NCBI GenBank assembly: GCA_029834535.1
Contig: JAQMWT010000014.1
Span: 62,001-126,000 of the forward strand
Source of the DNA: Chrysophaeum taylorii
Lineage: Eukaryota; Sar; Pelagophyceae; Pelagomonadales; Pelagomonadaceae
Direction of reading: 5' to 3'
Length of the DNA stretch: 64,000 nucleotides
Position numbers and translations under genes: made by a program. Of the stretch, positions 19,690 to 54,233 are shown piece after piece (position 1 is the stretch's first letter; the number at the start of each line of letters is the position of its first letter). The notes beneath the pieces are model-generated. The model searched no databases. It was not told the origin of the DNA and was given only the letters and a program-made list of their open reading frames with translations.

Positions 19690-21230
19690 GTTCTCGCAAA
19701 CAAACGGCCATGCTATTATGTTCTGGATTGTCAACACCTGCGTTTCTGTCACAAGCCACACATGACTTGGGTTTGAACATCGATGTTATGATTGCTGTGG
19801 AGTCCGACGAAGCTCTTGTGCGCATGTGACGATTCCCGAATGTTTTTACCTTTCAATCTCTTCCTTCTTTCCTCTTTTCCGTCTTTCCTCAATCATCTCC
19901 ATGCCATTTCGGAAGAAGAAATACGGACCCTAAGTTGTGACATCGTTGAGCCTTCACCCCATATTATCAGCGAATCATCTGCATGCTACCATCCTTCGTG
20001 TCTATTTCCTTTCTTTGGACTTACAGCCACTGCTGCGACCGAAGCGTCGTTAAACTACCCGCCAACGGCACCTACTTACTGCCTCGGCACAAGTTAAAAC
20101 TCCGTGCAGCAATCGCAATCTGCTCAAGAACACCAAAACATCAGACTTGGTCAGTTTGCTCGACAACTCCCTCTTTGACAGTATACTCTCTGTCACCAAG
20201 CTAGTGAAACCCCTAGTCCTACTTGCGGAGATGACAACCCCTCACAGGTGTATCCACAGGGACCACATTTCCGTGGCTAACCTCATTCACGCCACACTGG
20301 ACTACACCATTGATGTAGTCGACCGCTTCCCTACTTATCTGTGTGGCGATTACCAATCTCGGGAACGATGGACCTGCATTGCTCGCAGGTACAACACTGG
20401 ACCCATGGACATCCTGTCCTGGCCGAACCAGCACCCGAAACGCTTCTTGGACATAGCAGATGATATTAACTCGGTGCCAAAAACCCTGATCGCCGACCGC
20501 ACGGTTGCGATGGAGGACGGTGCCTCATGAATCCTGGGCCTTGCGAGGGCATCCGCCCCCCCGGCGTAGGTTGGCACCTATTCGCCTCCCGGGCGGGCCG
20601 GTTGGCAGCCGGAACGTTCGCAGTGGTACGGGGTATGGCCGGGGGGCGCAGACGGAAGGTTATCGACGAGTTGGTTGTCAGTCACATCGCGGTCTCCTCG
20701 TCGCATGGCGACAAGCTTGATGATCACTATCCGCCGACCCACCTTTCGGCGCCCCTCGTCGACAGGCCCGTGATTCCGGACTGGCTCCTGTCGGTCCGGC
20801 CTGGCTCCCATGCTCGGGAGAGGTCTGAAGTTAGTTAGTAAGCCTAAAACCCTCTGACTGTCTAAGACTCTATCTCAAGGCTGGGTTCGCACTTATCCAG
20901 ATCCACCACTGGTTCAATCTCCCAAAACGTTTCCTTTGTACTCTCGCACTGGTTCCGTTCGGTTAAGCTTCTATGAGCTTGAGACCCTCAACCTACTTTT
21001 TCTCAGGCTTCATTCACAGCAAGCTTTCGAACAACATACTCACGAAACGTACTCGGAGTGTTCCTATCATCACCATGGTTTCAAGAGATCCTCTAAGCAA
21101 CCACTACCTGGATCTTCGAATCCTATCCGCCTCAAGGCATTCGTTACTCTATACAATTTGTTCGCCAGAATCTCGCCGAACAACCCTAATGATTGTCCGA
21201 GAAACCTACATTTGGGATTTTACAGCATTG
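19690..21230 (+). mobile_element. methyltransferase module of copia element B
   Basis: Relic of a cytosine-5 DNA methyltransferase domain. The S-adenosylmethionine-binding motif I reads LLCSGLSTPAFLSQA (about 19720). Motif II is AVESDEALV. Motif VI-like is LLAEMTTPH (about 20217-20250). Motif VIII is CGDYQSRERWTCIARRY (about 20340-20395). A IX-like RTGSVRLSFYELETLN lies near 20950. The order and spacing match the modules at 36.1-37.6 kb and 52.8-54.2 kb. A SINE interrupts it. Broken fossil. Confidence 0.75.
20488..20841 (+). repeat. SINE copy 2 (TTAG tail) inside copia element B
   Basis: About 354 bp, head GATCGCCGACCGCACGG, tail GAGGTCTGAAGTTAGTTAG. It is flanked by a 12-bp target duplication with one mismatch (GCCAAAAACCCT at 20476-20487, GCCTAAAACCCT at 20842-20853), as expected for target-primed insertion by LINE machinery. 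By eye it is very similar to the copy at 51285-51649, so both are fairly young. A 103-codon open frame is shared with that copy but not with copy 1; I do not call it a gene. Confidence 0.9.
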
Positions 21231-23223: not shown

Positions 23224-24916
23224 TCGAGATGTCTTGTGGCAGAGCAACATGACATCTCTTGAGAAATGTGATTGAGGACGAGATCGGGATAAACAAGAAG
23301 TGCACTTCAGAGGTCACATAAAGTGGCACAACAGGTTCATCAGCAGACAGGTGTCACGGCTTGGACTTGGTGATAACACTCTGAATGCAAGGGAAACTTT
23401 GAAAGAGGGAAGTGAACGTGAGTGTGAGGCAGAAGTTAATGATAACGATGAGGAGATTGCTTGTTCCTCTTGGACCTCACATATGGCGGGGGGGGGGCGT
23501 CATCATCTTCAGGTTCTGAAGGATGATTGATGCTCTTTGCGGAAGCTAGAGGAAACAAACAAAAAAAAAAGGTAGAGAACGCGCAAGTAAAGACACAGGT
23601 AGCGAGACTGCCTGATCTTTATATCTCACATATAGCAGAGAGCAGAGACATCAGCACGTTAAGCGTGTGAGGTGGGTAGCGGTTAACGCTCCTGGCAGAG
23701 TTGTGTTGCGACATAAGTCGATGTTCAAGGACGAGGATGGGAGACTTAGGACTTTAACCTGAGCATCATGGTCCATGAAGCGTCGTCGTTTTATTAGAAT
23801 GCAACTGCTACGTCAAAGAGATTAAACTTGTAAGTTAGGTAGGGGTTGTGGTCCTCGTAGGAGAGCAGTCAAATGGGAAAAAAAATTTGTGAACTGTTAG
23901 TGAACAGCAAAGAAGAAGTGAAACTACAGAGGTCACATGAAGAAACACAATTTCGTGCAACTTATGTTCAGTCGTAGAATCATCAGCAGCTTGCTAACCT
24001 GGACGTTATATGGGTCGAGGATAAGTCCAGGAAGATATAAGGCGTGATGATAAAGAAAATGAAGACTGAAGACCAGTATGAGTATGTCGATGTACCATGG
24101 ACTCAAGGAGGGTGTTGTAAGAATCCTATCTGAGACCATGAAGGAAACAAAGAAGCGTGGTCTGATACATAGTCGGATATTTTCGGCAATGTATAGCGAG
24201 TTGAGGTGGGATCGTGAGACAGCAAGGGATTCAGGTCTCATGCACATAGTAGGCCATGGGTGTGGACGATATGGTACCACTGGGGTGGTGTCCGTAAGCC
24301 ATGCGTTATCCAGCACTGAGCATTTAGTCATTAGGAAGTAATGTTGGGCGGTAAGGGTACCCAATGAGAAGTGGACCCTTTAAGATTGTTAGTGTACAGT
24401 GGGCGCCGAGTGAATACATTGTTGTTGTGATGTCTGGGAATAGCGTCATCATAGGTCAAAGCATCAGAAGTCTAATGATAGAAGCAGCCGATGGATATAG
24501 TCATACAGGGCGAACAGTGGTATTCGTATGGTCGTATGTTAGGTAGATCCTGATCGACAATGGTGTACATAATACGTAAGTAGTGTGCACTGAACAAGAC
24601 GAACCGTAGCTTTGCAAGATGCTGACTCACGCAGATGGAGGTAGGTAGGTCACCCGCAATACTCGTTCATGATGTCAAATATTGAAATGAGAGCGTGAAG
24701 GCAGCTAAGTCAAAGCGTGGCATACGTATTTTGTCAACTCAAAGAGCAACGAGAGTTCAGTGAATCCGTAAAGTGTAATGATCAGAGGAGTCTACATGCA
24801 CGCGATGCAAGGTACAAACGGAGATTAAACTGCATGTGACCATGATGAGGAGAATGTACAGAGATATGAATCGTATGTTGCTGGGTTGGTAAAGTCCAAA
24901 TGTCAAACAAAAGGAC
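23224..24916 (-). mobile_element. 3' variable region of old copia element 2
   Basis: It lies between the end of the RNase H region of element 2 and its 3' LTR. Minus-strand open frames (for example 23933-24364) show nothing I can name. The position corresponds to the 3' open frames of the young element at 29.4-31.25 kb, but I could not align the two. Fossil, broken. Confidence 0.5.
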
Positions 24917-29093: not shown

Positions 29094-29408
29094 TGCAGAG
29101 CATTTAGCAAGCAGTGGTAAGTCACCTGGGAAACCATCCCGTCTCATCATGAACGTCTGGAAGTATTTAATTCGGGGAATGAAAAGGTATGTTCCCTATA
29201 TCCTCAGAACACGACAGGCGGCATCTAGAACTACACGAGAAAGGTAAAGTGTATAGTGCTACATACCTCGGGACGCGCTAGACCATGATGATGAGCTTAA
29301 GCACAAATCAGAGGACTATTTGATTGTGTAGAAAGGAAGAAGAAGGGTAAGGAAGAGATCACGATCTCAACGGACGGATAAGGGTAAGAGGCAGCAGATT
29401 TCTCTGCA
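29094..29408 (-). repeat. 3' LTR of element 1
   Basis: 315 bp, TGCAGAG ... CTCTGCA. The polypurine tract (GAGGGGG on the minus strand, 29409-29415) adjoins it on the element side. Flanked outside by GCGAG. Confidence 0.92.
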
Positions 29409-31258
29409 CCCCCTCGAGATGTCATAAGCGCAAGGTGCGTTTGTACAGCATCTCTTGAGAAAGATGATGATGAAGGAAAGAAAAAAGGAGAATACAGTCT
29501 TGATGGTCGTCGCAGAGGTCACATACGAAGCATCAAGAGTATAGGTCGATTTGACTCTTTTGAACAGAACACTAAGAGACACAGATACAACAGACAGTGT
29601 GTTAGGATTAGGATTATCAATCATCGTCAGCTTCTGCTGTAAGGTGGCGAAAACCAATAGCTGAATGATGTGGTGTCAAGAGAAGGGTGAGTGCAAGTAG
29701 AGCACGCAGTATAGATGGCGAAAGAGAATCTAGTTGAAAGGTGTCCAGTTGGTTTTTTCCAAAAAAGGTTGGACTTGGCGAACGAAGATAGAAGAGTCTT
29801 CAGATTCACATGAGAGCGGACAGAATGCTCTGAAGCATGAGAGCAACTTGTCACGTAGATGAAGGAGGTGATCGTCCGGAGAGGAGTGGTTGGCAGCATG
29901 TTGGTCATGAGCGGTGAGTGTTAAGCGAGACAACAGCTCTGTGATCTTATACAGTGTTATAAGTAACACGTGGGTGCTGGCTGTAAGAGGGAAGAGCCGG
30001 TTCTCCAGGGAGGTGATTGAAGCAATGGCAGCCTCGGTAATATAGATTCGAAGAGTTTCCTGGAGTTGGTCGACTTGTTGACACAAGACGTCGAAATCAG
30101 CAAGCGAAGCATAAGACGTAGGTAACGATGGCGAAGATATCTCCAGAGTAGCTTCTAGCGTGGAGTGTAAGTAGTTTAACGACGTTTCAGTCAACGTTAA
30201 AAAAGGTGCGCAGGGAGTCTTAATGTTCTGCCTGAGTATAAGTGTGGCCGAACATTACATCCCGGAGTGATGGCGGTTCTGTATCATCAGAGGATGATGC
30301 GTAGTCGTCAAGATGTTGTACACGCGATCGAGCAACAGTAGTAATCAAATGCTGAATGGATGGCTTGCATAGCCTGAGCTTTGCGACTCTGTGTTCGAAC
30401 AAAAATCACACGTAAACTACGATGCTCAAGGTGCGTATGATGGTAGCGCGTATATGACCAACTGAGCGCGCATCACAGGGGGATTTGAAGGAAATAGCAT
30501 TGCGAGCACATACTGTAGGTTGTATAGGCACCTGATCGGTGTTGTGACAAGCACAGCAAATGTTCATGGTAATAGCAGAAATGGGGATGTGGCCATTCTT
30601 CTTATGGTCGTCCGTGTTGAGGTGACTCAGCACTTCTGTGGGGAGTTCACGAGGTGTTTGTGCCTTGGAACTGTACGTGGTCGAGACTAGGAAAGTCGGT
30701 TGTCCACGATCATTGAGCCACTGCGCACAAAAAGGAAAGCGACAAAATGAAACGTTCGCGTTTGGGGCCTCTGTAGCAGCCAATAGAAGCAATAGCAGGA
30801 GCAGCTTCCCAAGGTAGTAATGGGTAAGCGCATGGATATGAATGTGGTCAGGTCCACAAACAATAAACAGTCAGTAGACTCATAGGGCAGTGTGAATTCC
30901 ACTCGCATAAAAGAAGAGAGAAATGGGGTAACAGGGACACGGAAGTTCTCAAGGAGAGAGATTCCTCGCTCGTAAGCAGCATAGTCAATACTGAGGCCGC
31001 CCTGGAACGTCAGCGACTGAGGTGAGATATGCACGGCTGGTGTCGGTGCAACCGCAGCAGCCAGTGTGGTAGCAGTAATAGCAGTCATGGTTCGTTGCTT
31101 TTGCGACAACCTGGGGGAAGGTTCGGCCGTGGAGGGCGAGAAAGGACTGTCCTTCAACCGACTAGGGAGATGCCGCGGCCACGGGAGTGCCAAGCAAAGA
31201 CATGAGCGACACTCACACGCGTACGAAAATTTGTGGCAAAAGAAGGTAAGACCAGGGC
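29409..31258 (-). mobile_element. 3' open frames of element 1, beyond RNase H
   Basis: About 1.8 kb between the RNase H end and the 3' LTR, where ordinary copia elements have almost nothing. Minus-strand frames at 30687-31193, 30406-30792 and 29730-30194 can be seen. The second includes a Cys-rich phrase MNICCACHNTDQ, perhaps metal-binding. The third begins at a junction motif (MTETSLNYLHSTLE) and looks alpha-helical (LCQQVDQLQETLRIYITEAA). I recognise no family. Family D has a different helical frame in the same place (56751-57284). Envelope-like features were looked for and not seen. Confidence 0.55.
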
Positions 31259-31296: not shown

Positions 31297-33190
31297 TCAA
31301 TCCTGTAAAGGCTTGTCGTCAGAGGCATGATGCATACCGAGTAGAGAACAAAAAGTGGAGAACTCAGCAGTAAGTGGCTTTGGAAAACCATCAGCCACGT
31401 TTAGCTTGATGGGAACATGATGGACTCGTATTTTCTGTAGCGAGATGTATTCACGGATCTTAAACCATCTGGTCGACAGTGCCTTGGATCGAGAAGACCC
31501 ACCTGGGTTATTAGAGATGTGAACAGCAGCAGCATTGTCAGACAAGAGAGGTAGGCTTCTGATGAAGCGCATATCTTCAGCAATTGGGTTGTCATTGTCA
31601 TCGAAGTCAACAGGATCAGCGGTGTTCTCACCATTAACATTGTTGACGTAGAAGGTGGGGTTGACGACAAAGGAGAGTTCCAACAGCAGCTTACGTAGCC
31701 AAACAGCTTCATTAGCACAAATACTGAGGGCAATCAACTCAGCTTCGTGAGTTGAGCAGGAGACAATCGGTTGAAGTTTGCTTTTCCAACCAATAAGGCA
31801 GTTGAAAAGATAGAAGACAAACCCGGTGGTAGATTTCCTATCTTCCTGTGCTAAGGAAGGGGCGTTGTCAGCGTCAACCATGGCAACTAAGGGATCAAAC
31901 TGTCCAGTAGATACATCCTGCGGTTGATAGTCGATCACAGTGGAGAGATCAATTCGATTAGCGGAGACAGTGCGAAGGTGAGCTTCAATAGCATTACCTT
32001 TAGGATGGAACCAGAGGCGAAGTGAGCGGTTTTCCGGCTTCTTGAGGTAGCGAAGCAAATGCTCTAGCATTTGGACGTGAACATACGTGGGTGCATGCAT
32101 ACCACGCGAACATCTGCCCAAGGCTTGCGAGAAGTCAGGTCTGCAGGCCACTCGCATGAACACCAGCTTGCCAAGGAGGGTGGCAAAGTGCGAATTGATG
32201 TACAACTCTGTTTCGGAGCTGGGAGTACCATCGTTATACTTGAAGGACGATGACATAGGATATTTAAACGGGGTCAGTTGCTGCAAGACAGGGTGATCAG
32301 CGAAGAGTTCATCCAGCTTGGCTTGCACATCCAGAGAAATGGAGCCGTCAGATGTGCGACACACACGCATGCCTAGGAGGGTATGGACAGGTTCAAACTG
32401 CTCTACAGCATACCGTTTGTGGAGGGCATCCTGTAACTCAGTACGAAGAGGGTCGTCATTGGACACAATAACAATGTCGTCTACAGACAGACTGCATACG
32501 ACGAACTTAGCATGTGCGGATACTCGAGCATATAGGCAAGAGTCCGAATGCAGGCGTTTGTAACCAAGGCTACGGAAGAAGCCGTCTATCTCTTTGTTCC
32601 AAAGAGATGGTGATTGCCGAAGTCCATAAAGTGACTTCAGCAGTTTCGGTAGACGTCGGCCCTTGTACTTAGCGTCATCGGGGTCGATAAGCTTGATGCC
32701 GTCTGGTAACTGAACATAGACGTTGGCATCAATGTCAGACTGAACGAAGGCGTTCGGGACGTCTGCATGGTAGACAGGCAATTGCTTGTATGCTGCAATA
32801 GCCAGTAGTACCCGGATTGCGGTCATTGTGGCCATGGGGCTGAAGGTGCCAAAGAAATCGGCGCCAAGAGATGCTAGGAAGCCACGTAGCACGAGGCGAG
32901 CCTTGTGCTTAACGTATTTGCCTGCAGAGTCTGTTTTAATCTTCAGCACCATCTTGCTGTCAATAGGACGAGAGACACCGTCGGGTAAGGAAAGTTTGAA
33001 GCAGCCAAAGCGGATAATGTCGTGGAGTTCCTTGGCGATGGCCTTGAGGTAGGCGTGCCTGTTTTCAGGCGACAAACCGTGGAGGCACTTAAGTTTATAT
33101 TCGTCAATGGAAACGTCCGCTTCTTGGACCTTATATTCGTCAGGACCAACAGTGGCTGGTGAATTATAGTTTAGCGACGTTGCGGTCGAG
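31297..33190 (-). mobile_element. reverse transcriptase-RNase H module of element 1
   Basis: Copia-type. RT phrases include KHKARLVLRGFLASLGADFF, PNAFVQSDIDANVYVQLPDG and LYGLRQSPSLWNKEI. The catalytic box is SVDDIVIVSND. RNase H phrases are EDRKSTTGFVFYLFNCLIGW, STHEAELIALS and LLSDNAAAVHISNNPGG. A junction motif lies at its N-terminal border (TATSLNY, near 33175) and another at its end (near 31265). Part of a large reading frame that reaches back into the integrase C-terminal region. Confidence 0.9.
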
Positions 33191-35408
33191 GCAGTGTGCG
33201 CAACTTCGGGATAAGCGGAAACAGCGTCAGTAGGAGTAGGAGAAGCAGATTCCAGTTGGATATGGATAGTAGGGTCGGTACGTAAGACCTGGGTGATAAA
33301 CTCTGTAGAGACCAGAAGGTATTCCTCCAAGTCAGCCAGAGATGCAGAAGTAGCGCCAAACTCGGATGAGTTGTGATCAATAAAGCTGGTCGGCGCCAGG
33401 TACGTAAGTGCATATTGTAAGGAAGAAGTGCCGAAGGCAGCAGCGTGTTCAGTGAACGCAGATAAAAGGGGCTGAGGAATAGGGCACGTAGGTGAACCAT
33501 CAGCAGTTAAAAAGGTTGCAGCTGGGATGCTGGATGCGCACTTGGCGTGGGCGAAGTAACCATCGACGTGCGGGTAGCGGGCAAGTAAGTCAGTGCGCAA
33601 CGGGAGAAGAAGACGAGCTAACAACGCATGTTCCCCCTCTGAGCAGATAGCAGACCAGAGGATACCACCACGGAGATGAAGGGCGGAGAGGGCGGGAGAC
33701 TTGAACGTAAGAAAGTGGTGGCGAAGATCCCAGCGGAAATCGGCGAGTTTGCCACCAGCGGCTTTGTAAGCACCAATAGTAGACGCTTGTAACCGGGCTC
33801 GGATAGTTTTCATAGAAGTGGCCTTGCGAGTGTTAGGCTGTTTGGAACCTGGGACAAGAATGAGGTCATCTTGTGCAAAAAGGTCTTTGTAAGAAGGAAG
33901 CAAGGGCGGCGGTGACATAGAGCCAGATTCGTCGGCGGTAGCGTTAGAAGATGGAGAAGAGGCCGGAGTAGGGGACGAAGAAGGAGGAGCTGAAGGAGGT
34001 GGGGAGTGCCCCCTCTGAGGATGAGGAGTCCTTGTCCCCCTCTGAATGACATGGTCTTGGATAGTGGTGTGGGGTGTGAGCGAGAAAGGCGCGGAAGGAG
34101 CGTGTGGCGGAGGAGCTAGTTCAGGATCAGGAGTAGGATGCTGCAACATGTAGAGGAATTGCAGCTTGGACGAAACACGAATTTGTCCGTTTTCAGGGTT
34201 GAGGACGACGTCAGCGAGATGGTCGACGCGTGGGGAGACGAGCGGGTTTTGCGCGTTGGCGCAACAGAGATACAGATATTTGCGGCGGCACGGTTCCCAC
34301 TTGTGGTGTTCATGGGGCTCCAATAGGAGGTAACATTCAGCGCCAAAAATCTTGAGCATATCGTGTTGGGGAGTGCTGAGTTGGTTGTAGAGTAGCTGTT
34401 GCGGACTCAGAATAGCATGATGAATGCGCTCGAGCGTGGCGTTCGGGAGAAGGTTGTAGCTTTGAACGGTGTGTATCACCGCCCATGGGAACATGATAGC
34501 GGGTTCCACGATCTTGGCGCCACGATAGTGAGCATTAAGGAGAGAACGAAGGCGAGTTGAGGAGGCGGAGGCGATGAAACCGATGGCAGACTCAACTTCA
34601 AAGTTAAAGTGGTGCATGTACGGCGGGAAGCGATGTGATTCTGGTCGTCGAAGGTGAAGTGTTAGTTAGTACGGCGGGAAGGCAATGAGTTGAATGCCCT
34701 TATCGACGCGGTACGGGGAGGTAATGTGCTGGCTAAAGTAAAGCTTGAATGCATCGGAGTAGAGGGTGCGCATGTGCACATTGAGTTGTGTACGACAGAA
34801 GTCATACACAAAATCCAGAGCTTGAGTGAACTCCGTGGCGTTGGTGGTGCGTGTAAAGTACACCAAGAGAAATTTCGAAATGAGTTCCTTGAAGACGATG
34901 ATATGTGTGAAGCCTCCCCATTCGGATGGGATGGTCACATAGCCGCCGTCGCACGCCCAGACTTCACCGGCTTTGTGGGTTTGCTCAAAAGAAGGCTTGG
35001 TCGCATTGAAATGCTTGTGCGGGTGGCGCTTGTTGTGTGCGATGCAGTCGGTGCATAAGTCGCGATATGGTATGTCAGAAGCAGAGAATCCAGGGCGAGC
35101 AAGTACGTTGGGGGCCTTGGCAGCGACGTTGTCGGGGCAGTGATGCACCCGGTGAAAGCGATTAGCACGTTCTTTGGCATTGAGATATTCGGTGGATCCG
35201 TGTGCGAGAGACTTACGAGGAATTGGATGAGCGGAAATGTGCCGTTTGCGCCGAACATCGAACTTGAGTTCGGTGTCTAAGGCAGTGGAAGGCGGTGCGT
35301 CGTCATCCTGGTGCACAGCAGGGTCACTTGGAGGTGCATCCTCATTATCACGAGTAGCGAGAGTATCTTCGTAGGACGACGATATATAGTTTAACGACAT
35401 TTCAGTCA
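33191..35408 (-). mobile_element. integrase module and Pro/Ser-rich linker of element 1
   Basis: It starts after a junction motif (CLTEMSLNY, near 35395). The zinc-binding segment is HRVHHCPDN ... CTDCIAHNKRH. The core is GEVWACDGGYVTIPSEWGGF (first catalytic Asp) and LYSDAFKLYFS (second Asp). The C-terminal region, typical of copia, has EPHEHHKWEPCRRKYLYLCC and VLNPENGQIRVSSKL, followed by a long Pro/Ser-rich stretch with short Gln-Arg-Gly phrases. Fossil. Confidence 0.88.
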
Positions 35409-36130
35409 AGCAGTTGCTGGAAATGGACATCATAAAAGATTGTGCCAAAGGCAAGGTATCTGTGCTGCACGTGGTGGAGGCTTGGTCAACGGTCATCAAA
35501 TTGGATATATAGGATTTCTTCGTCACGGCAGCAGTATGTTGGAAGGTAGGGTCCAACATAAGGGATTTAATTTCGGCAACGAGTAGCGAAAGGTGCTTGT
35601 ACAGAGTGCTGTACGTACCGGCAGGCAGAGCATTGCTGAGCATGTCACAGCAAAGGTCATGGCGTAGAGACAAGAGGAAAGATTCCTGTTGTTTGGTGTG
35701 GTTGTTAGCACGAATCAACTCCGGTCGAGTGGGGTAGCGTAATTTCCCGTTGCGAGGGTCGAGTAAAATAATATTGGCGTACCCTCGGACGGTGGGCAAT
35801 GGAGCAAGCATGGAGTGGATTTTAGAGCCGAGTTTGCGGTCACTTCCACGAAGGTACCCTATATAGCGACTATGAGATAAGTGGTGATCTTCCAGAGCAA
35901 AATGAGAGTCCTTGTAGTCGAAAGAGTTGTCGGTGGCCTTGTAGGTAAGGCAGCCAGGCATCACAAGAGAGCATCTGGACAAGAGCTTTTGTATGGCGGT
36001 GCCATAGGTGGCAGCGGAGCCAACTTGGGGAAGGGCTTGGACTATCCACAAGTAACCCATAAACGGCTCCAAATATATGGACCTGTCCCGGTCGCGGGGG
36101 ATGTCGGAAGCAATGAACGTATACGTGCTT
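35409..36130 (-). mobile_element. unnamed domain between methyltransferase and integrase, element 1
   Basis: About 240 residues with MGYLWIVQALPQVGSAATYG, YIGYLRGSDRKLGSKIHSML and CCDMLSNALPAGTYSTLYKH. The same domain follows the methyltransferase in family D (54,040-54,780, with LGFITSSDRKMGAKVHSIYT), so it is an ancestral part. I do not recognise it; it may be the methyltransferase C-terminus or a protein of its own. Confidence 0.6.
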
Positions 36131-37560
36131 CCAAAGCATCGATGGAAGCATGATATTTGGTGGTGGCGTTCTCTATGGTGAGGTTGCCATCAGAATGGTG
36201 GCCACCAGTTAAGAAGTAGGAGTTGTATGATGTTGATGAGGTTGTAAGTAGTAACCTGTGTGACGGTTGGTTAGTTTCGAAAACGGTTATGTAATAGGAC
36301 ACAGGAGTGGGTGAGTTAGTGTGTAAGCTGGCAAACAAGTTATAGAGGATTGTAAAAACCTTGACGTGTATAGGGTACGTTGCATTGGGTAGCGGCTCCA
36401 TAGAGGAGCGTTTAAAGCACAACTGATGATAAGTACACTCGGATTGAACAGAGTGAGTACGTTGCTCGTGAGCCTGTTGTGAGTGAAGGCGAAGCAGTAA
36501 CATATTGAGGGATTCAAGGTCAGCCATAGTAAGCTGAGCAGAACCTGTGCGAGAGTAAGGTGCAAACGTTTTAGGAACGGGAATATATGGAGGATCGGGG
36601 AACACCCGGATCCAGTCTTTGGATACGTGTTTAGGTAGCCAAAGTCGCTTGGGAATAGCTTGTAGATCATCCACGATCTTTAGGAAGGGGCGTGGATGGA
36701 GGATAGGCCACGACAATAATTTAATTGGTCCAGTAGAATACCTGCGTGCGATGCATATCCATCTTTCTCTAGATTGGTAGTCGCCACAGAGGAAGGTCGG
36801 GAACCTATCAACAACATCGACACAGTAATCGAGTGTAGTATGGATAAGATTGGCCACTGTGATGTGGTCTTGATCACAGTACTTATGCGGAGGCGTCATC
36901 TCCGCCAGTAGTACCAAGGGCTGGAGTAGCTTGATGACAGACAGCATGCTGTCGAAAAGAGAATCGTCCAGCAGGCTGTGTAAGTCTTCTGTCTTATGCT
37001 GTTTTAGTAAACTCCTGTTTGTGCAGGGAGGAGTGATCTCAATTATATCACAATAGAATGTGCGCCTTTCCTCTGGTGAGATTAGGTGAAGATGGTTAAT
37101 AAAGGCGGGGAGAGATTCAAATAATAATACAGTAGGGAAACGGTGGCGTAACATACGAACAAGCGTATCATCAGACTCAACAACAACTTTTACATTGATA
37201 TTTAAGCCTAAGTCATTAGTGGTTTGAGACAGGAACGCCAGAGTTGACACTAACTAACTAACTTCAGACCTCTCCCGAGCATGGGAGCCAGGCCGGACCG
37301 ACAGGAGCCAGTCCGGAATCACGGGCCTGTAGACGAGGAGCGCCGAAAGGTCGGTCGGCGGAGAGTGACCATCAAGCTTGTCACCATACGACGAGGAGAC
37401 CGCGATGTGACTGACAACCAACTCGTCGATAACCTTCCGTCTTCGCCCCCCAGCCATACCCCGTCCCACAGCGAACGTTCCGGCTGCCAACCAGAGTTGA
37501 CAAACCAGAACAAAGTAACATGACAGAAGGTTTGCGGAGATTGGACTCTTGTGGGAGAAA
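36131..37560 (-). mobile_element. cytosine-5 DNA methyltransferase module of element 1
   Basis: C5 methyltransferases transfer a methyl group from S-adenosylmethionine to cytosine in DNA. Readable motifs: I (LLCSGLSTL, near 37530), II (VVVESDD, near 37180), IV with the catalytic Pro-Cys (IIEITPPCTNRS, Cys near 37025), VI with its Glu (VLLAEMTPPH, near 36900), VIII (CGDYQSRERWICIARR, near 36770) and a IX-like SRTGSAQLTMADLESLN. Motif VI has EMT where most enzymes have ENV. The same order appears in two other copies in this window. A SINE sits inside motif I (37250-37490). Its place between protease and integrase suggests it is made as part of the polyprotein. Confidence 0.85.
37250..37490 (-). 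repeat. SINE copy 3, 5'-truncated, inside methyltransferase motif I
   Basis: 241 bp in minus orientation. The TTAG tail is at the left (CTAACTAACTAACTTCAG). The head stops early at GGCTGCCAA, a 5' truncation typical of target-primed reverse transcription. It is flanked by a perfect 12-bp target duplication CCAGAGTTGACA (37238-37249 and 37491-37502). The duplicated bases belong to the methyltransferase SAM-binding motif, so the insertion came after the copia element had landed or was carried by its parent. Confidence 0.92.
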
Positions 37561-37578
37561 CACTGGGCGTGAAAGTAG

Positions 37579-38640
37579 TCAAGTTAATGGCTGCGTATTT
37601 TGCTGAACAAACTTGTTCTGTTTCCGAAGATTGAGAACCAAAGGGCGAATCCACGGGCGATCTGGTAAAACTCTTTGGAGTAGGTAGTTGTAGTATGCCA
37701 GTAGATCCCTGTTTTCATGGTATCGCTTGAGGGGAAATGCGAGCGAACGAAGTTCGAGTTGCTTGTCGCGAGCGATGTTGTAAGTGAGACAAGGGAGAGC
37801 AGGTAAATTAGCTGCTATGTAGTGTATGGGTATACGTACATCTTTGTCTATGCGGCTCGTGACAGCGCTGAGCTTTAGCTCAGCTCGATCATTGAACACA
37901 GTGGTCAGGTTCGTCTGGTTCCACTCGAGCATGCTCAGGATAGCGAGATGTCGGTCATGCACTGGCTGAAGACATAAAGCGAAGTCGATCTTAACATAGC
38001 CAACTTGTGGATGATCTGGTAGGGGAACAACAATGTTACGTGTTAACATCATGTGTGATGCACGTTGTTGTCCAGTAGCCGTCTGAATAACAATCGGCGC
38101 GTATTTGGAGTCCAGTGGAATTGTATGATTGGGTATTGCAAAATCATAAGTGGACATCAATGAGATGGTAGCACAAGAGTCAAAACATAGAAAAGAGCAA
38201 TGTGGAGGGACACTGTTTACCTTCATGTAGTTGGTGAGGAAGGCGTTTTCCGAATGTGGGCAAGTAGTGGAGAGGCTGGCTATGAAGAAGTTCTCCAGCA
38301 ATAACAGACTCGTTGGAATAATAATCGGTTGAACAGGCGGTGATGGTTCGTCAGCCTCATCAGCCATGCCGTGCTTTTCATCAATTGACGATAGCGAAGT
38401 ATGATCGGCATCCCTTTTGGTTTCGGCTTGTGATGGTAGGTTGAGGGCAGATTGGACCTGTGAAGATAGCGAGGACAATAATGCTGGTGGTAAAGCCGAG
38501 ATGGCGGAAGCGGTAAAGAGGTTAGGCACTGTATTGGAAGGATTACCCTGTGTGTTTGTAGTAGGAGGAGTAGTTGCCTTTGGGGTGGGAGCAGTAACAA
38601 CAGTATGGTGTTGTGGCTCCGCGTAGTTTAACGACTTTTA
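37579..38640 (-). mobile_element. aspartic protease module of element 1
   Basis: It follows a junction motif (SLNYAEPQ, near 38630) and a Thr/Pro-rich linker. The protease core is read at FDSCATISLMSTYDFAIPNH, with TATGQQRASHMMLTRNIVVP and HPQVGYVKIDFALCL further on. This is the DSG/DTG-like site of copia proteases with Cys in the Gly position. Family D has DTCASQHVINYKR at the same point. Confidence 0.75.
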
Positions 38641-40445
38641 GGTCGAGGATAGATGAACGTCTACATCATAAATGATGTCTTCTGCAAACATGAGCTGTTC
38701 GTTTAGACGAAGTAAACTACTGTTGTCCTCAGTAGATGTCGTTGACAGAATGTCAGCTGATTGTAATAGAGTCTCAAATAACTTGTTGATATTCTGTTGT
38801 AGCTGAGCCGTGGTATCATTATCTGTCACATGCTTCGTAAGTTCACTACACTGTTCTCGCAGGGTGTTTAAGGTGTGGTTTGTTCGATCTAATAATTTCA
38901 TGTTAGACCGAGAGGACCTGTCAAAAGTGCGGGGGTAAATTGGACGGTCATGGGACTGTCCAGCAGTTTTCTTGGTGACGTAAGAATCACCAGAACGATA
39001 ATACGATAAATCGCTGCGAGAGAAAGGCTGGCGAGCATCATTAGAGTTACGCAAGCGTCTAGCATTAAACGTGGAAGATGTACCAGGTTGGGACGAAGTG
39101 ATGAAGGCGAGTGTGTTAGCAGTTTGAGTCAGACTTTTGTCTGCTGAGTCCAGAGTGTTTGTAAGTAGTAACTTTGGCTTTGGTTGAGATGATAAACCTT
39201 CGACATAGGGTTGCCAAGAAACAGGGCGTTCTAAGCGTCTTTTGTTCGACCCATTTGATACTACATTGTATAGGTCTAATGCGCATTCTAAAATGTAGCT
39301 AGGGTTGGTAGGGTGACACAATCGTTCAGCTTCTGGCACAGGCCGAGATGAAGATCGGGTTTCATACATATAACACCAATCTACCCAACCACGATCGTAA
39401 CGATTGTTGCTGGTATTATCGGCATAATGCCGATGTATCTCTTCATAGATTTTTCTACAAAGAGTGCCAAAGTCGAATTGAAGGTCAGTCTCTTCCTGGT
39501 TAAGTTGGTAAGAGATTTGCCTAAATGCTAGGACAGCTTCGATAAATACATGGACATACCAGTTAGGATTATAAACAACAGAGTTAAATTGCTGTTTCAA
39601 ATAGGACACATCAGTAGTCGTAACAGACTCGTAGTGACTAAAGGCGATGAGCATAATGGCTCGAGCCTTGTTGGGTAAATAACTTTTGTTATATACCTCA
39701 TTGATGGCGGGCCAGGCCGCAAGTGCTGGTTTTCCAACACTTTCAAGATTGAAGTAAGTATGCAAGAATGTAGCATACGTGTTCTGATAAGTGTGCCAGT
39801 CAGCAGCAGTTAACGAAAACATAGTAACAGGGGCACGAACACGGGTGTCGAAAGCTAATGCTTTCGGGTGCGCGCGATTAAGATTCGTTCCTCTTCTAAG
39901 AAACGGGCATTGATTTCAGGACGTAATGCCTTGACTTCATAGTCGTAACAGACAGTAGCTAGCTGAGCTACTTCTGCGTCAAGTAAGTTGGGGAAAGCTT
40001 CGTTGGTGAAATGCCATTACTGATACTCAGGGGGTAATTCATCAACAGCTAAACGGAGATCAGCAGCCCTATCGGTCTTCCATTCCAGGAAAACGCGATC
40101 GAGAATTTGATTCCGGAGGATCTCGTAGTCCTTGCATGACCGAGTATATGCTTCGTACGAGTCGTACTCGAGGAAGGCATCGGCATGACTGGACCGTAAC
40201 AATTGCTTAATATGCTTGATTTGCAAGGATACCTTGCGAGTCTGAAGCTGAAATCGATTTCCATCGTTAAGAAACTCAACTACAGGAGCTTCGAGCTTCA
40301 ATATATCCGCACCTGTGATCGCCTTGGGTGCGGCTCGTGCTGCGTGTTCTGCCATAGCAGTTGACGGGGAACCTGTGGGTTCAGTCACGCAGCTGACACT
40401 GTCTAGACATTCTAAGGGGGTCTGTCTATCGGTGTCTATGTACAC
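38641..40445 (-). mobile_element. Gag module of element 1
   Basis: It encodes the capsid-type protein. It starts at MAEHAARAAPKAITGADILK (or a little upstream) and includes PTNPSYILECALDLYN and FNARRLRNSNDARQPFSRSD near the C-terminus. The same C-terminal phrase occurs in element B and, more weakly, in family D (FNARKLRNAKDKASTILPRD). No Cys-His zinc knuckle is seen; the basic, Arg/Ser-rich end may bind RNA instead. It ends at a junction motif. Confidence 0.75.
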
Positions 40446-40852
40446 TCATCGTTTTCGATGGAAAGATGTCTATTCATAGTAGTGTCGCTAAACGTAGTCA
40501 CTCAGGCAGCTGGTTAGTTTTGGTGCTCTCAAGGAGCTTGTTAAGTGCATTGCCATGGAATGTACGAGTGGACGTACCCAAAATATTCCATAACATGTGT
40601 GCAAGAGTACAGGTTAGCCAATTACACACACATCAACATTGACATGACAATACGATACTATGAACAGGTGCACACAAAGTTACACGATCACGTGTGCAAA
40701 AATATGCTATATACAGCCCAATGGTAATGCCGTTATATTGACAAGCGTGTTTACGTGGCGAGGCTGAACCGGCGCGGTAACGGTCCAAAACCCATAGGTT
40801 ACGTGCACGTTTTAGCACATGGTTTCTCAGGCACCCGCCTGAGCCCATAACC
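40446..40852 (-). mobile_element. leader and primer-binding site of element 1
   Basis: Directly after the 5' LTR (minus strand) comes GGTTATGGGCTCAGGC (40837-40852). It is complementary to the anticodon stem-loop of initiator tRNA-Met rather than to its 3' end, which is the half-tRNA priming known from Drosophila copia. About 390 bp of leader follow, shared with the fragments at 57665-57914 and 58640-59098. Confidence 0.8.
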
Positions 40853-41171
40853 TGCAGAGCATTTAGCAAGCAGTGGTAAGTCACCTGGGAAACCATCCCG
40901 TCTCATCATGAACGTACGGAAGTATTTAATTCGGGGAATGAAAAGGTATGTTCCCTATATCCTCAGAACACGACAGGCGGCATCTAGAACTACACGAGAA
41001 AGGTAAAGTGTATATATAGTGCTACATACCTCGGGACGCGCTAGACCATGATGATGAGCTTAAGCACAAATCAGAGGACTATTTGAGTGTGCAGAAAGGA
41101 AGAAGAAGGGTAAGGAAGAGATCACGTTCTCAACGGACGGATAAGGGTAAGAGGCAGCAGATTTCTCAGCA
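40853..41171 (-). repeat. 5' LTR of element 1
   Basis: 319 bp, close match to 29094-29408. Flanked outside by the target duplication GCGAG (41172-41176). Promoter and polyadenylation signals should lie here, but I cannot place them by eye. Confidence 0.9.
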
Positions 41172-41745
41172 GCGAGTTAGGAAGCTATACACATAGGTCT
41201 TCTTCAAAGTGGCAATATCGTGTTGAAAGGAGGGGTCCAACATAAGTGACTTCATATCGACAACTATACGGCAGATGTGTATGTACAGAGTATGGTAAGT
41301 GCCTGCAGGCAACGCATTGCTGAGAAGGTCGCAGCATAAATCTTTCTACGGCGCAAGTAAGAAGGTTGCCTGGGAACGGGTATGAGTGTTGGCTCTAATA
41401 AGAGCGAGTAGGGTAACGGAGTTTGTTATTGAGAGGGTCCATCAGGATCATATTTGCATATCCCCGTATGGTAGGCAGTGGAGCTAGCATCGAATGGATC
41501 TTGGATCCAAGCTTGAGGTCACTGCCACGTAAGTAGCCAGTATATCGGGCATGAAAAAGATGGTAATCTTCCAAGTCAAAGTATCTGTCTTGGTAATAGA
41601 GTCGATCGGCGGGTTGGTTACAAACAACACAGTTGGGTATGACAAGGGCGCTAGATTGCGCATGGCAGGAAACGTACCGCGGGCTGTGTTGACAGGGGGG
41701 TAGGCTTGCACTAGAGTCGCGATTATGATTCGAGATGGAGCGTCT
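41172..41745 (-). mobile_element. old copia element 2, 5'-side fragment
   Basis: It matches the domain between methyltransferase and integrase of element 1 (for example TCCAACATAAGTGACTT against 35,550, and GCAACGCATTGCTGAG against 35,630). It is continuous with 24,917-29,093 once the young element and one copy of its target duplication are removed from the layout. Its right edge meets repeat R at about 41,745-41,760. Broken fossil. Confidence 0.8.
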
Positions 41746-41982: not shown

Positions 41983-42075
41983 TCTCGCGAGACGTAATCG
42001 AAACGCCGACCACTCGATGGATATATGCCCATGCCCGCCTACAGTCGAGCGCTCTACCAACTGAGCTATCGCGAG
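41983..42075 (-). tRNA. tRNA-Tyr (GUA) with a 20-nt intron
   Basis: Full cloverleaf by eye: acceptor CTCGCGA with TCGCGAG, D arm GCTCAGTTGGTAGAGC, anticodon stem CTCGA with TCGAG, loop CTGTAG-A with anticodon GTA, and T arm GGCGT-TTCGATT-ACGTC. The intron (GCGGGCATGGGCATATATCC) follows position 37, as in other eukaryotic tRNA-Tyr genes. No clear T-run terminator follows. The tRNA with its spacer and repeat R recurs elsewhere, so this may be the head of a repeat rather than a single-copy gene. Confidence 0.85.
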
Positions 42076-48962: not shown

Positions 48963-49356
48963 TCCAGAGAGCTACACTATTATGTGTGCGACACTGGAAC
49001 ATTTCACACCTATCTCTACAAGAGGGTTTTCTCTCCGTAATACGGCTTTCCCTCTCTCCTTCCTTACCCTTCCGCAATTACTTATTCATGACTATGAAGA
49101 ACCCAGTCTGAAGCTCTTTTCCAACATGGAGTAGGCCTCCAGGTGCGTACCGTCAGGTACGGGGTGTTCTGTTTAATTAACAGAGGCTTCGTTCCTCGTT
49201 GTCAGCGTAAACGCTTCTATGGGACCTAATGTCCTTGAGGAGTTAGGGCTTAAATCCCTACCTTGTGTAGTCGCATGTGACAAGCGGAATGGTCTGTCCA
49301 CGCCGAAGACTGCACGCAGTCTCTACCATGTACCCGGAGAGGGTCAAATCTCTCCA
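48963..49356 (+). repeat. 5' LTR of the family-D element
   Basis: 394 bp, TCCAGAGAGCTACAC ... AAATCTCTCCA, followed at once by GGTTATGGGCCCAG. Related to 57402-57664 and to the minus-strand LTR at 22818-23218. Confidence 0.85.
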
Positions 49357-49771: not shown

Positions 49772-51284
49772 TTGAGAAGCCCTTCATTCTTATGTGTCGA
49801 ATATGTCTATCAATCCTATAACCTATTCCTTAATAGGTCACAATCATGTCAAAAAAAAAAAACCAATATCCGGAATGCTCCGGAATACAGTCAAATCCTT
49901 GATAGCGAAGTAGATGCCATCTTTTCAAGATGGATATCCGAGGAAATTAACGAATTACATCAGCATTAATGAAGATGCCCTGCCCGAACATTTAAAGACT
50001 TGGCATGTCAACTCTTCCCATCAACTATCAGTCGATGCTCGTAATAATCTCGAGCGACTTAACTACCAAGAGTCATACAATCTCGTTCGTCCTGAATTAA
50101 ATGAGGATGTTAAACTTGTCCTCACTTTATTAGATACCCGATTCCCTAAATCAATTGTTATGATTCGCCTCTAACTAACATATCCTTTATAGGTCTCTCT
50201 AATGCCGATTGGATCAAACACTGCGAAATTTATGCTGGTTTCTTGTACACATTTTTAAATCTAGAATCACAAGAAAAAACCGCACTCGCTATGTGGCCTC
50301 AATTAAAGAAGATATATGCACTTACTGCACATCCTAATAAACTACGTGCAATAATGCTTTTAGCTTACCATTACTATGAGACAGTGTCTTGTACAGATGT
50401 CACTGAGCATAAATCTCAGTTTAATCGAATGTCTTTAAATGTTAATTGGTATGCCCATGTATTTGTCGAACAACTCCTTGCTTCCCAATCTCAGGCAAAG
50501 CAATTAAATAATGATGAAGCATCAATCCAATTTAATGATTCCACAATCACTCTTAAAGCTCACGAGGAGATCTACCGTCTATATGCTAATCCCTCGGATC
50601 ACGAGCGCTATTCTCAATCTTTATTGGAATGGTGTAAACTCTACGAGACACGCTCTAGGAACAACTCGATTCACGACCCTGAATTGTTAAAGCTAATTGA
50701 TCCTAATGACGTTCGTCCGTTATTGGAGTTCCTGTTAAAGATATATAATATAGCAAAGTTTTCCTCGAACCGACGCTTGTATAAACCCGCTTCCTGGATC
50801 CCTTACATCCCTGGTACTACCGCTACCTAGCCACCTAAGGTATTATTGATGGATACTATTCATCAATCCCACGACTCCCTAAACAATGCTTACTCGTTGT
50901 TAGCTACTGTAGCTGGACAGTCTGGCTTCAACGCTCGTAAGCTTCGTAATGCAAAAGATAAAGCATCGACAATTTTACCTCGTGACACGTCGTACTATCG
51001 TCCACCTTCAAATTATAACGTCAAAGGTACCAGCTTCGATCGTCCTGTCTACTCACCCTCCTCTAACCGCAATGCACGCTCTAATATGTCTCTTATGGAC
51101 CGGGCTACTTATCAGGTTGATCGTCTTCGCCACCTGTTTGGTAAACTACAGGAAGCGAATCCCAACCCCTCTACCGACTCTAAAATGGTATATGAGGAAA
51201 TGAAAAGCTTACTGAGTACCCTATGGACAACCGCTTCTCAAGCATCGACACAGTCATTAGATCCTGAAGAAGCCACCCAAGTTC
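49772..51284 (+). mobile_element. Gag module of the family-D element
   Basis: Several frames encode a Gag related to family 1: LNLESQEKTALAMWPQLKKI, HPNKLRAIMLLAYHYYETVS, FNARKLRNAKDKASTILPRD and SYYRPPSNYNVKG. Compared with family 1 the sequence is clearly diverged but the same length and order. Fossil, broken. Confidence 0.75.
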
Positions 51285-51649
51285 TAACTAACTAACTTCA
51301 GACCTCTCCCGAGCATGGGAGCCAGGCCGGACCGACAGGTGCCAGTCCGGAATCACGGGCCTGTAGACGAGGGGCGCCGAAAGGTGGGTCGGCGGAGAGT
51401 GATCATCAAGCTTGTCGCCATGCGACGAGGAGACCGCGATGTGACTGACAACCAACTCGTCGATAACCTTCCGTCTGCGCCCCCCGGCCATACCCCGTCC
51501 CACTGCGAACGTTCCGGCTGCCAACCGGCCCGCCCGAGAGGCGAATAGGTGCCAACCTACGCCGGGAGGGCGGATGCCCTCGCAAGGCTCAGGATTCATG
51601 AGGCACCGTCCTCCATCGCAACCATGCGGTCGGCGATCAGGCTAAGGGT
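51285..51649 (-). repeat. SINE copy 4 (TTAG tail) inside the family-D element
   Basis: About 365 bp in minus orientation, between Gag and protease. Tail CTAACTAACTAACTTCAG at the left; head with CCTGATCGCCGACCGCATGG at the right. It is flanked by a perfect 12-bp target duplication CCACCCAAGTTC (51273-51284 and 51650-51661). Nearly identical by eye to copy 2 at 20488-20841. Confidence 0.93.
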
Positions 51650-51687
51650 CCACCCAAGTTCACCTCTACTTATCTCGAGTTGATACT

Positions 51688-52788
51688 ATGTCCAATACCA
51701 TCATGAGCCTCTTAGAAGCCGATAAGGAATCTCATGTTTCAGAGGAAAAGCATCAAACTGAAACATCTGCTCCTGAAGCGTCCCCCAGTGATACGGAGCA
51801 GAGGGGGACTGCTGATACAGAGAAAATGTTCCACACTTTTCTATCCATTAAAGATGATGAAATCGATAACATTCCTCCGCCGCTATTGCAGCACATAAAC
51901 GCTAAAGCTCAGAGTGCTATCGTTCGTCGTCAAGAAACTTCCTCGCACTCTGAGCTCCCCAATAATCTACCCAACGAAGATAATGAAGATGGCACCGACC
52001 CCCCTGTATTGCTACCAAAATTAAACACTGGTTTTACACTTGTCGTTGTGCCTTCTGAACAAAAGCAAAGTTTCATGACACAGTACGTGTTTGGTCAAAG
52101 CTCAACACATGCCTGTTATGCAACAATGCTTAAACTGTACAACGAGTACAATTTGCCGCTAATGACTACGCCAGGATATGCTGACACATGTGCTTCTCAA
52201 CATGTAATTAATTATAAACGTTACCATGATCCTATCCACATCGTAAAGCTACCCGAGTCCTTATCACCTGCTATCCAGACTGCTCCGGATACGCAGAGTA
52301 TCTCACATGCTATGATTATAAGGACTGTCATTCCCGCTCTCCCAAAGCATCCAAATGTGGGATATGTAAAGCTAGACGTTGCGCTTTTCCTACCAAAGCA
52401 AAACGACCATAACGATCCCGATCTGCACCTCATCAGCATGACTCAATGGGGAGAAGATAAGCTTGGTATACATCTTTATGGAGTTGAATTTAAAGGACAA
52501 TCATCTATCCAGAGTAAAATTGACGATAATGTCAATATTACTTTGTTTAGACTTAATATCATGTTACGCACTCTACCAATTTATTCGCTACAACAAGCAA
52601 AAGCGCGTAAAATGGAACTTCGCTCACTACAGTTCAGACTATGTGCTTTTAATAAACAACGCGAAATGCTTAAACTATATTCCACCCTCATGGAACGCGT
52701 AATTTACGTCCCATGGCTTAAAACCATCTTGGAGTCAATGCATTCGCAGCTGCCTTACATACGCAAGCAATTCCCACCTCCCGTATGA
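51688..52788 (+). mobile_element. aspartic protease module of the family-D element
   Basis: A 366-codon frame. The N-terminal part is acidic and includes IDNIPPPLLQHINAKAQSAI. The active-site region is PGYADTCASQHVINYKRYHD (Asp-Thr-Cys-Ala-Ser), with SHAMIIRTVIPALPKHPNVG further on. It matches the protease of element 1 in order. Confidence 0.75.
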
Positions 52789-52806: not shown

Positions 52807-54233
52807 TTGCTTCACGCAGTAACTACGTCTCCTAGCTCACGAACACCTACTGTAACTCTACTTTGCTCTGGGATGTCCACTCCTGCCTTCTTGGCTTGCG
52901 CTTCTAATGACTTGCAAATCAACATCAACGTTAAAGTTCTTGTTGAGAGCGACGACAATCTCACGCACATGCTACGAAGACGTTTTGGTAATTCCATCGA
53001 AGTTTTCCCATCCCTACCCAAGTTCCTTACATATCTCCATCGAGCATCGGACGCTGAACGTGCACGATATTACACCGATATAGTGGAACTGACATCACCA
53101 TGCACAAATCGCAACATAATCAATGGGAAATCCATTTCCACCTTCGAGCGTGATATGGACGATTCCTTGTTTCCAAGTGCTCTAAGTGTACTTGAGCTTT
53201 TAAAGCCGCTTGTTCTTTTCATGGAAATGACACCACCACACTCCGCATCGTATGAAGACCATATACGAGTTGCTAATCTCATCTTCTCAACGATGCACTA
53301 TACGGTGGATATATGTGACCGATTTCCATGCTATCTGTGTGGAGATTATCAAGCAAGAGAAAGGTGGATCCTCGTTGCACGCAAATATAACACCGGCCAT
53401 CTTGATCTGCTTTCCTGGCCTAACAATCGAGTCACTTCCTTTATGGACATGCTAATTCCATTAGTCGCAAGTTAATAGTCGACGAACCTTGGACGCAAGT
53501 CTTTCCCGACATACCATTCGTGTCCACACCTAAAACCTACAACATCTTTAGTCGTACAGGATCCGTGCGCTTAACTGTGACTGAGCTTGAAACCTTAACC
53601 ATGCTGTTCCTTCGTCTGTACTCTAACAAAACAGTCGAACATCCCAGTCAAGATGAAATGGAGGGCATTTCTAACTTTCGCCTGGGATTCTTGACTAATT
53701 CAAGAAAGCCACTTGCTTGCATGAGATCCCCTATTGAACTCAAAGCTTTTGTGCTCCTCTATAATATTATGGGACGGTTATTCCCTAAATCCATCACATT
53801 ACCTGCGTCCTTTCGTATTACAACTATCGAATCTAACCAACCTTCTCACAGGTTATTCTTAAATAAATCCTCTACTTCATCCATCATTTACATCACTGAT
53901 GGAAGACATACAGGCGGAGACATAACAGTTTCTAACTCTTCTTCTAAATACCAGGCACACACAAATGCTTTTGGCGAAACCTACGCCCTTTTAACACACG
54001 ATGCCGGAATTGACAAGACTGCTTCTCTCGAACCAGTTACCGGTTTTCTTTGGCTTTGCCAAGCATACCATAATAATAATGAAAATCAAGACACACGTCG
54101 TCTAGTACAAGCACTGGTTTCCTATACCTCTCCTGTATTTCACGATTCTATTGTCTTCTACCCTCAGGAAAATCGTCTCGAATTTATCGACAAAATATTT
54201 GCTTTAAGTGACATGCATTTGTCCCAAAGCTGA
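52807..54233 (+). mobile_element. cytosine-5 DNA methyltransferase module of the family-D element
   Basis: The most readable methyltransferase copy, in two abutting frames. Motif I VTLLCSGMSTPAFLACA (about 52,850-52,900), II KVLVESDD, IV DIVELTSPCTNRN with the catalytic Cys near 53,102, VI LVLFMEMTPPH with Glu near 53,224, VIII LCGDYQARERWILVARK (about 53,335-53,385), IX-like RTGSVRLTVTELETLTMLF (about 53,555). The order is that of ordinary, unpermuted C5 methyltransferases. No targeting, BAH, PWWP or chromodomain is seen next to it. Fossil context; only a few breaks. Confidence 0.88.

Follow-up and report, generated by a model that had tools for sequence, protein, structure and literature searches.

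A putative cytosine-5 methyltransferase domain in Copia retrotransposons of Chrysophaeum taylorii

Why should a retrotransposon encode an enzyme of the kind that silences it? Such elements are a paradox met in very few hosts, and retrotransposons with their own DNA-methylating enzyme are rare and were previously known from a few other algae. We analyzed a stretch of 64,000 bp (the window; positions 62001-126000 of its contig) from the 70.8-Mb assembly of C. taylorii, which comprises 697 contigs. This genome gave 84 matches to the chlorophyll a/b-binding family, one of which had fucoxanthin-type antenna proteins (such as 7vd6, from a diatom) as its best PDB relatives, and none to phycobilisome proteins, which suggests an ochrophyte. 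For this DNA an earlier note had claimed that Copia elements carry a cytosine-5 methyltransferase (C5-MT) domain between protease and integrase.

Layout of the Copia copies and expression of their frames

The window consists mostly of a nest of Copia-type elements. By tblastn and the open frames of relatives, three methyltransferase (MT) modules were located at 19695-21187 (plus strand, copy 1), 37578-36126 (minus strand, copy 2) and 52840-53930 (plus strand, copy 3). Each of them comes after gag-protease sequence. A region termed X and the integrase follow in copies 2 and 3, and in copy 2 also the reverse transcriptase (RT). The tblastn layout and the order of the motifs thus bore out the claimed position between protease and integrase. 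Coordinates, order and motifs had been read correctly, but the copies are less intact than implied, all three being broken due to an insertion and a frameshift (copy 2), a frameshift (copy 3) or stops and an insertion (copy 1). Elsewhere in the genome many copies are open. In the following, A denotes the Copia family of the window MT, B a second Copia family of the same genome and G a group of Gypsy-type elements with an MT. The reference frames for A were those of locus L011 (an open frame of 1691 aa covering MT, X, integrase and RT) and locus L014 (892 aa, gag-protease). The features of copy 2 were as follows.

40602-41172, minus strand: presumed 5′ LTR, 571 bp (same sequence upstream of gag in L009-L012 and L014-L016, 89-95% identity)
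37582-40253, minus strand: gag and protease region (tblastn with the L014 frame, 91-94% identity)
37579-37581, minus strand: in-frame UGA (UGA-CUA) at the protease/MT border (UGA aligned in 14 of 14 distinct family-A loci)
37491-37578, minus strand: start of the MT, first 28 residues with motif I LLCSGLST (tblastn match 37578-37495, 89% identity to L011)
37250-37490, no strand assigned: 241-bp insertion splitting the MT (12-bp target duplication; junctions aligned with 13 other loci)
36126 to about 37250, minus strand: remaining MT (tblastn, 92.5% identity to L011; PF00145 E 0.016)
32206-36135, minus strand: X region, integrase and RT (one tblastn stretch, 96% identity to L011; RVT_2 E 8.7e-42, weak rve match E 0.003)

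The LTR sequence of copy 2 recurs at 57663-58228 (94.6% identity) and partly at 29094-29408; an intact 3′ LTR of this copy was not found, and a single full LTR-like copy fits. Two tRNA genes with an Rfam score of 55 bits lie on the minus strand of the window (60995-61082 and 41983-42075), one of which lies beside the copy-2 LTR. The gag-protease frame has one break near 39879-39903 and another, a TAA, at 38638-38640. The part of the MT beyond the insertion contains motif II, motif IV (TPPC), motif VI (AEMTPP), motif VIII (QSRERW) and IX- and X-like segments, and near 36126-36135 the frame shifts on passing into the region before the integrase. Copies of the 37250-37490 insertion with 95-97% identity are present at 20485-20842 and 51284-51641, and another one lies inside the gag-protease region of L012. 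The repeated sequence is truncated at one end and has TTAG repeats at its end, resembling a SINE or a short non-LTR element by which these Copia elements are often hit.

The features of the two copies on the plus strand, and a remnant of a B-like MT, were as follows.

49148-49356, plus strand: presumed 5′ LTR of copy 3 (95.7% identical to 57457-57664)
50180-52779, plus strand: gag and protease of copy 3, with the repeated insertion interrupting them at 51284-51641 (39% and 27% tblastn identity to L014)
52786-52788, plus strand: in-frame UGA (UGA-CGC) at the protease/MT border of copy 3
52840-53421 and 53478-53930, plus strand: MT of copy 3 in two frames (tblastn, 59% and 43% identity to L011)
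53931-56402, plus strand: X region, integrase and following part of copy 3 (within the tblastn stretch 53478-56402, 42% identity to L011)
57457-57664, plus strand: presumed 3′ LTR of copy 3 (pairs with 49148-49356)
17212-19646, plus strand: gag and protease remnants of copy 1 (tblastn, 48-58% identity to L014)
19695-19874, 20090-20509 and 20807-21187, plus strand: decayed MT of copy 1 (tblastn, 53-68% identity to L011, with stops)
24340-24750, minus strand: decayed family-B-like MT remnant (tblastn, 30% identity to B, E 5.7e-7, many stops)

A frameshift separates the two MT frames of copy 3, and the MT of copy 1 is interrupted by the repeated insertion at 20485-20842. RVT_2 matches were obtained for copy 2 (see above) and L011 (E 7.7e-42), and rve matches before the RT, below the cut-off of this profile, in both A and B. 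The protease of both families was placed by its position and by a D-S/G-x-A-like stretch read by eye. On the basis of the RVT_2-type RT and the order protease-integrase-RT, families A and B are Ty1/Copia elements.

In family A, the UGA terminates a frame common to gag and protease, and the MT frame comes next in the same phase. In L014, a frame of 892 aa is followed by this one stop and then by 1230 aa of MT, X and integrase. The context of the stop in the 14 distinct alignable loci was UGACUA (11 loci), UGAAUA, UGACUG or UGACCA (one locus each); the count is without L012, where the match breaks, and without L001 and L007, these two being duplicates of the window copy and L015. UGA-CUA is a leaky stop context. 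Family B is organized differently: in L053, protease and MT lie in one frame, and the upstream frame overlaps it in another phase. We infer that A is expressed via stop-codon read-through and B via frameshifting. Gag-pol of the murine leukaemia virus type likewise has a conserved in-frame stop between a gag-containing frame and the pol frame. Unlike that system, where the stop is UAG, A has UGA, placed after the protease and before the MT, and read-through in A is deduced from this arrangement. The insertion in copy 2 and the in-frame UGA, like the Gypsy-type family with an MT described below, were absent from the earlier note.

Probable assignment of the module to the C5-methyltransferases

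When the MT modules of the window were compared singly with the C5-MT profile PF00145 (cut-off 22 bits), copy 2 scored 15.1 bits (E 0.016), the N-terminal part of copy 3 had an E value of 0.18, and the MT of copy 1 had no Pfam match. The open 1691-aa polyprotein of L011 had no PF00145 match up to E 1. Taken strictly, the claim thus came close to failing, since it was meant to fall if none of the three modules had a significant match. All of them stayed below the cut-off, and their membership is based on relatives. The query P0001 had only two relatives in the database, of which P0005 (37% identical) exceeded the cut-off with 23.0 bits (E 6.1e-5) and P0004, which occurs in the transcript collection MMETSP, stayed below it with 20.2 bits (E 4.4e-4). 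No database relatives were obtained for the MT portions of the A and B polyproteins, and viral contigs queried with A2 and P0004 yielded no MT relatives. One locus of family B had a single frame of 1952 aa with PF00145 at 32.1 bits (E 1.1e-7), a weak rve match (E 0.006) and RVT_2 (E 1.6e-38). In G, L054 was above the cut-off (22.8 bits) and L055 below it (19.6 bits).

Profiles of A and B aligned motif by motif over 281 columns with a probability of 86% and an E value of 5.1e-6 (2.5e-6 in a second comparison). The LTRs of copies 2 and 3 differ, and MT, X and integrase are co-linear between these two copies. Together with the A-B alignment, these results support the proposal of the earlier note that families with different LTRs share the MT and that its capture predates the split of the lineages.

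A word search in the frames revealed the Pro-Cys of motif IV in 13 of 15 distinct A loci and in 27 of 28 B loci; in G this motif reads SPPC (L054, L055 and L060-L062). The Glu of motif VI was present in all 15 distinct A loci as AEMTP, that is, with AEM rather than ENV, and as ENV in 27 of the 28 B loci; in G no clear counterpart was recognised. Motif VIII (QxRxR) was found in 14 of the 15 A loci, the exception being L012 with QSRGR (E to G). In B it reads SKTR or similar and lacks the Gln, and in G it is SSRVR or SCRVR, which differs from the motif of DNMT3. In alignment A1, the catalytic motifs were retained down to 39-41% identity and motifs I to X were in order. This conservation, together with at least 106 genome matches and the purifying selection described below, argues for more than a chance resemblance.

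Searches for structural relatives gave weaker signals. With the A1 profile nothing significant was found in the PDB, the best match being a proteasome subunit (E 0.1) followed by a C5-MT (E 0.94). The family-B profile gave three non-significant matches (E 0.015-0.03), all of them cytosine MTs acting on DNA, and the G profile gave weak, non-significant matches to DNMT2 (E 0.06-0.07). The predicted model of the A domain was poor (mean pLDDT 47.6; fair only for residues 1-90 and about 110-165). Foldseek with this model returned human DNMT2 as best match, tied with MET1 in second place, and also DNMT1; 22 of the 50 listed rows were C5-MTs, and unrelated oxidoreductases scored nearly as high. The predicted model of family B was unusable for a fold search. 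In a class comparison by hhalign with the DNMT2 and DNMT5 of the host, the matches of A and B were weak and tied them to neither, and G had a weak match to the host DNMT2 (E 0.00095, probability 22%).

Membership of the domain in another Rossmann-fold family would be in line with the window copies lying under the PF00145 cut-off and with the oxidoreductases among the fold matches. This reading is nevertheless close to refuted, as PF00145 exceeds its cut-off in P0005, in B and at dozens of B places in the genome, and as A and B align with motifs I to X in order. We conclude from the sequences that the module is very probably a divergent C5-MT domain. Loss of catalysis, the domain then serving the polyprotein in a structural role or by binding nucleic acid, would fit the weak Pfam scores and the altered motif VI of A. 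It appears improbable, given that nearly every locus examined retains the Cys of motif IV, the Glu of motif VI and the Arg of motif VIII, also at 39-41% identity, and that B has canonical ENV and PCQ. Intact copies are predicted, with good probability, to encode active enzymes.

The structural matches also bear on the substrate. An MT acting on RNA, e.g., the genomic RNA of the element or the tRNA primer, as DNMT2 does on tRNA, would fit the best Foldseek match of the A model, although DNMT2 was tied with MET1 there, and the weak DNMT2 matches of G. According to the accessible text of PMC5890265, its authors raised RNA methylation for a LINE element. On the other hand, the sequence ties A and B to no class, hhalign to the host DNMT2 and DNMT5 was weak, and the weak PDB matches of B are DNA MTs. 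We regard an RNA target as unlikely.

Distribution, selection and proposed role of the methyltransferase

Genome searches yielded at least 106 matches for the A MT (1373 candidates, 103 scored), at least 127 for the B MT (657 candidates, 118 scored) and at least 131 for the G MT (1008 candidates, 131 scored), some matches of each family being pieces of the same locus. The G matches had ≥ 80% identity, and many of them lay in long open frames. For scale, a search with Copia RT gave at least 150 matches (1670 candidates, 150 scored). The genome search with PF00145 gave at least 124 matches (474 candidates, 123 scored), and 30 loci fetched from this list comprised one DNMT2, one DNMT5 and 28 loci matching family B. 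The G loci L054 and L055 were reached via PF00145 matches that covered only profile positions 2 to about 53. In G, the MT, which has LFSGAGG and SPPC, precedes an RVT_1 RT (E 1.2e-13 in L054), which led us to consider the element as Gypsy-type. In the translation, an integrase zinc-binding stretch was read by eye after the RT.

L054 (positions 2-2830), L055 and L060-L062: G elements with the MT between the protease-side region and the RT

Two further loci, L063 and L064, have a more divergent MT that looks like that of G.

The host DNMT5 (L018) is an open frame of 2086 aa with a PF00145 score of 65.4 bits and an E value of 2.3e-130 to PDB entry 7r76 (deposited as Rad8), which we take to be Cryptococcus Dnmt5. 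The host DNMT2 (L017) scored 69.6 bits and had an E value of 3.9e-39 to 1g55. Both host proteins thus share PF00145 with the modules of the elements, but they have far higher scores and are stand-alone genes. No further host DNMT was recognised among the matches listed and read. Since the recognised non-element PF00145 matches, among those listed, are one DNMT5 and one DNMT2, we propose as a speculative reading of low probability that retrotransposons have taken over de novo methylation of cytosine in this alga, with two Copia families and one Gypsy family writing and the host DNMT5 copying. Cryptococcus DNMT5 is a maintenance enzyme.

Selection on the MT was assessed by Nei-Gojobori medians of dN/dS over the pairs with a dS of 0.01-1.5; these pairs are not independent of each other, and some of the copies sampled are damaged. 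In family A, the median was 0.185 for the MT (13 sequences, 78 pairs, range 0.037-0.388), 0.212 for the X region (78 pairs), 0.152 for the integrase (65 pairs, up to 0.843) and 0.139 for the RT (7 sequences, 21 pairs). The MT of B had 0.155 (14 sequences, 91 pairs) and that of G 0.218 (4 pairs); three more distant G loci compared with L054 showed a dN of 0.109-0.122 at a dS of 1.9-2.5. Judged from these low medians, the MT is under purifying selection and is conserved nearly as well as the integrase and RT of its own elements. Selection of a similar order has been described for the Symbiodinium elements in the accessible text of PMC5890265, with Ka/Ks below 0.2 compared to medians of 0.14-0.22 here.

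The observed/expected ratio of CpG was 0.92 in seven A loci, 1.01 in five B loci, 1.17 in four G loci and 1.30 in eight host loci, and the corresponding TpG/CpA values were 1.14, 1.16, 1.06 and 0.86. The lower CpG content of the elements is compatible with some methylation-driven loss and is confounded by base composition. These values bear on the idea that the MT acts in trans, on the DNA of the host or on competing elements, the carrier gaining from an altered host methylome or from silenced rivals. High copy number and the presence of three MT families would suit such a role, as would a CpG ratio below that of the host, which is compatible with methylation of the elements. We consider it quite unlikely, as the CpG difference suffers from the confounding just mentioned and as the fusion to the polyprotein, probably expressed via read-through, points to action within the particle.

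The reading that we think most likely, with a probability somewhat short of even for the chain as a whole, is that the MT chiefly methylates the cDNA of its own element, before integration or in the course of it. The C5-MT domain would have been built into a Copia polyprotein before the split of A and B and then retained by selection. Ribosomes passing the UGA would produce a minor Gag-Pro-MT-X-IN-RT product, so that the MT would be packaged in small amounts with RT and integrase. In the particle or the pre-integration complex it might then work on new double-stranded cDNA. New copies would enter the genome pre-methylated and would either resemble resident DNA or be passed to the DNMT5-type enzyme of the host. 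As possible roles, the earlier note had named escape from recognition and limitation of damage. We favor methylation of the own cDNA because of the sequence features reported here and because, according to the accessible text of PMC5890265, two MT domains borne by DIRS elements methylated CG in yeast. In the same yeast test, LINE- and Gypsy-borne MTs had no activity, a result called inconclusive by the authors.

PMC5890265 was the one primary report of retrotransposon DNMTs found in our literature search; its accessible text also cites earlier studies linking DNMTs with reverse transcriptase. It describes LINE and DIRS elements with a DNMT in Symbiodinium and Copia elements there without a DNMT domain, so that the Symbiodinium Copia case given in the earlier note is not supported. 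The Gypsy case of Klebsormidium in that note agrees with this source, in which the element of K. nitens carries a Dnmt3-type MT by the paper's tree. In the accessible text of PMC12344493, one sentence assigns some DNMT3 of streptophytes and dinoflagellates to DIRS and LTR Copia elements, and no such element is described there. The source given is PMC5890265, the 2018 paper, in which the streptophyte element is a Gypsy element, and the mention of LTR Copia could be a slip or an unlisted case. A DNMT inside a retrotransposon is not mentioned in the accessible text of PMC9998398 and PMC3145265. Our search, with most subscription journals outside its reach, brought up no account of a DNMT-bearing Copia element.

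The families described here resemble SymbioDIRS-Dnmt3 and SymbioLINE-Dnmt, as presented in the accessible text, in having captured an MT that lies inside or beside pol and is present in many copies. They differ in that the carriers in Symbiodinium are LINE and DIRS elements and those here Copia, and in that the DIRS MTs are Dnmt3 whereas A and B are tied to no class. KnitGypsy-Dnmt3, an LTR element with the MT in its Pol polyprotein in the same text, is the nearest known parallel of G; A and B are, unlike it, Copia elements. If the Copia capture holds up, the habit of carrying an MT spans LINE, DIRS, Gypsy and Copia elements. The usefulness of a captured MT becomes directly testable in C. taylorii, where a host DNMT5 and three MT-bearing element families, two of Copia and one of Gypsy type, are kept side by side in one compact genome.

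A 21-nt sequence shared by the elements

The sequence GACCGNAANGTCGTTAAACTA (21 nt) has 1094 exact copies in the genome, compared to none for the reversed control. The window has 14 occurrences of its core GTCGTTAAACTA with at most one mismatch, where 0.19 are expected. The sites were located as follows.

14848, 16339, 17615, 18569 and 20046, plus strand: 21-nt sites in the window
24917, 25579, 26906, 28988, 30172, 31259, 33167, 35387 and 38624, minus strand: 21-nt sites in the window
L067-L070, L072-L102 and L104-L135: 21-nt sites outside the window

In family A, the sequence lies in frame, encoding T-x-x-SLNY, at the gag/protease, X/integrase and integrase/RT junctions, and again near the end of pol, where it contains a stop. 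It is also in frame in G-type sequence, with two copies 87 bp apart in three of four fetched loci; in these three loci it lies about 3.5 kb upstream of G-MT matches. The sequence was not found in the B locus L053 or in copy 3 of the window. The corresponding pattern at the peptide level had 1298 matches (reversed control 7), 1021 of which had exactly the codons TCG TTA AAC.

Outside C. taylorii, the 21-nt sequence was present in 31 stretches of IMG/VR contigs, compared to one for the reversed control, and in 23 of these 31 a frame of at least 60 aa starts 9-66 nt downstream of it. Eight of ten tested phage genes downstream of it encode head scaffolding proteins. Bacterial and archaeal genomes contained 32 stretches, of which 10 precede a frame whose beginning was labeled by eye as DnaK-like. 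At the 21-nt sites Rfam gave no family, with weak rows at chance level only, and the sequence had no match in the literature searched.

Given its positions at the junctions in A, we considered SLNY as a plain protease cleavage site. This explanation is insufficient, because its codons are almost invariant between unrelated sites, because the sequence is found once more where pol ends, there including a stop, and because its position in phages and bacteria is a non-coding one. It is likely a functional DNA or RNA element and might act as a signal in either nucleic acid, or mark sites at which elements exchange sequence. Family A also seems to have a further frame downstream of pol (29730-30254 on the minus strand, and L065), which appears to start near another copy of the 21-nt sequence (TETSLNYLHST...).
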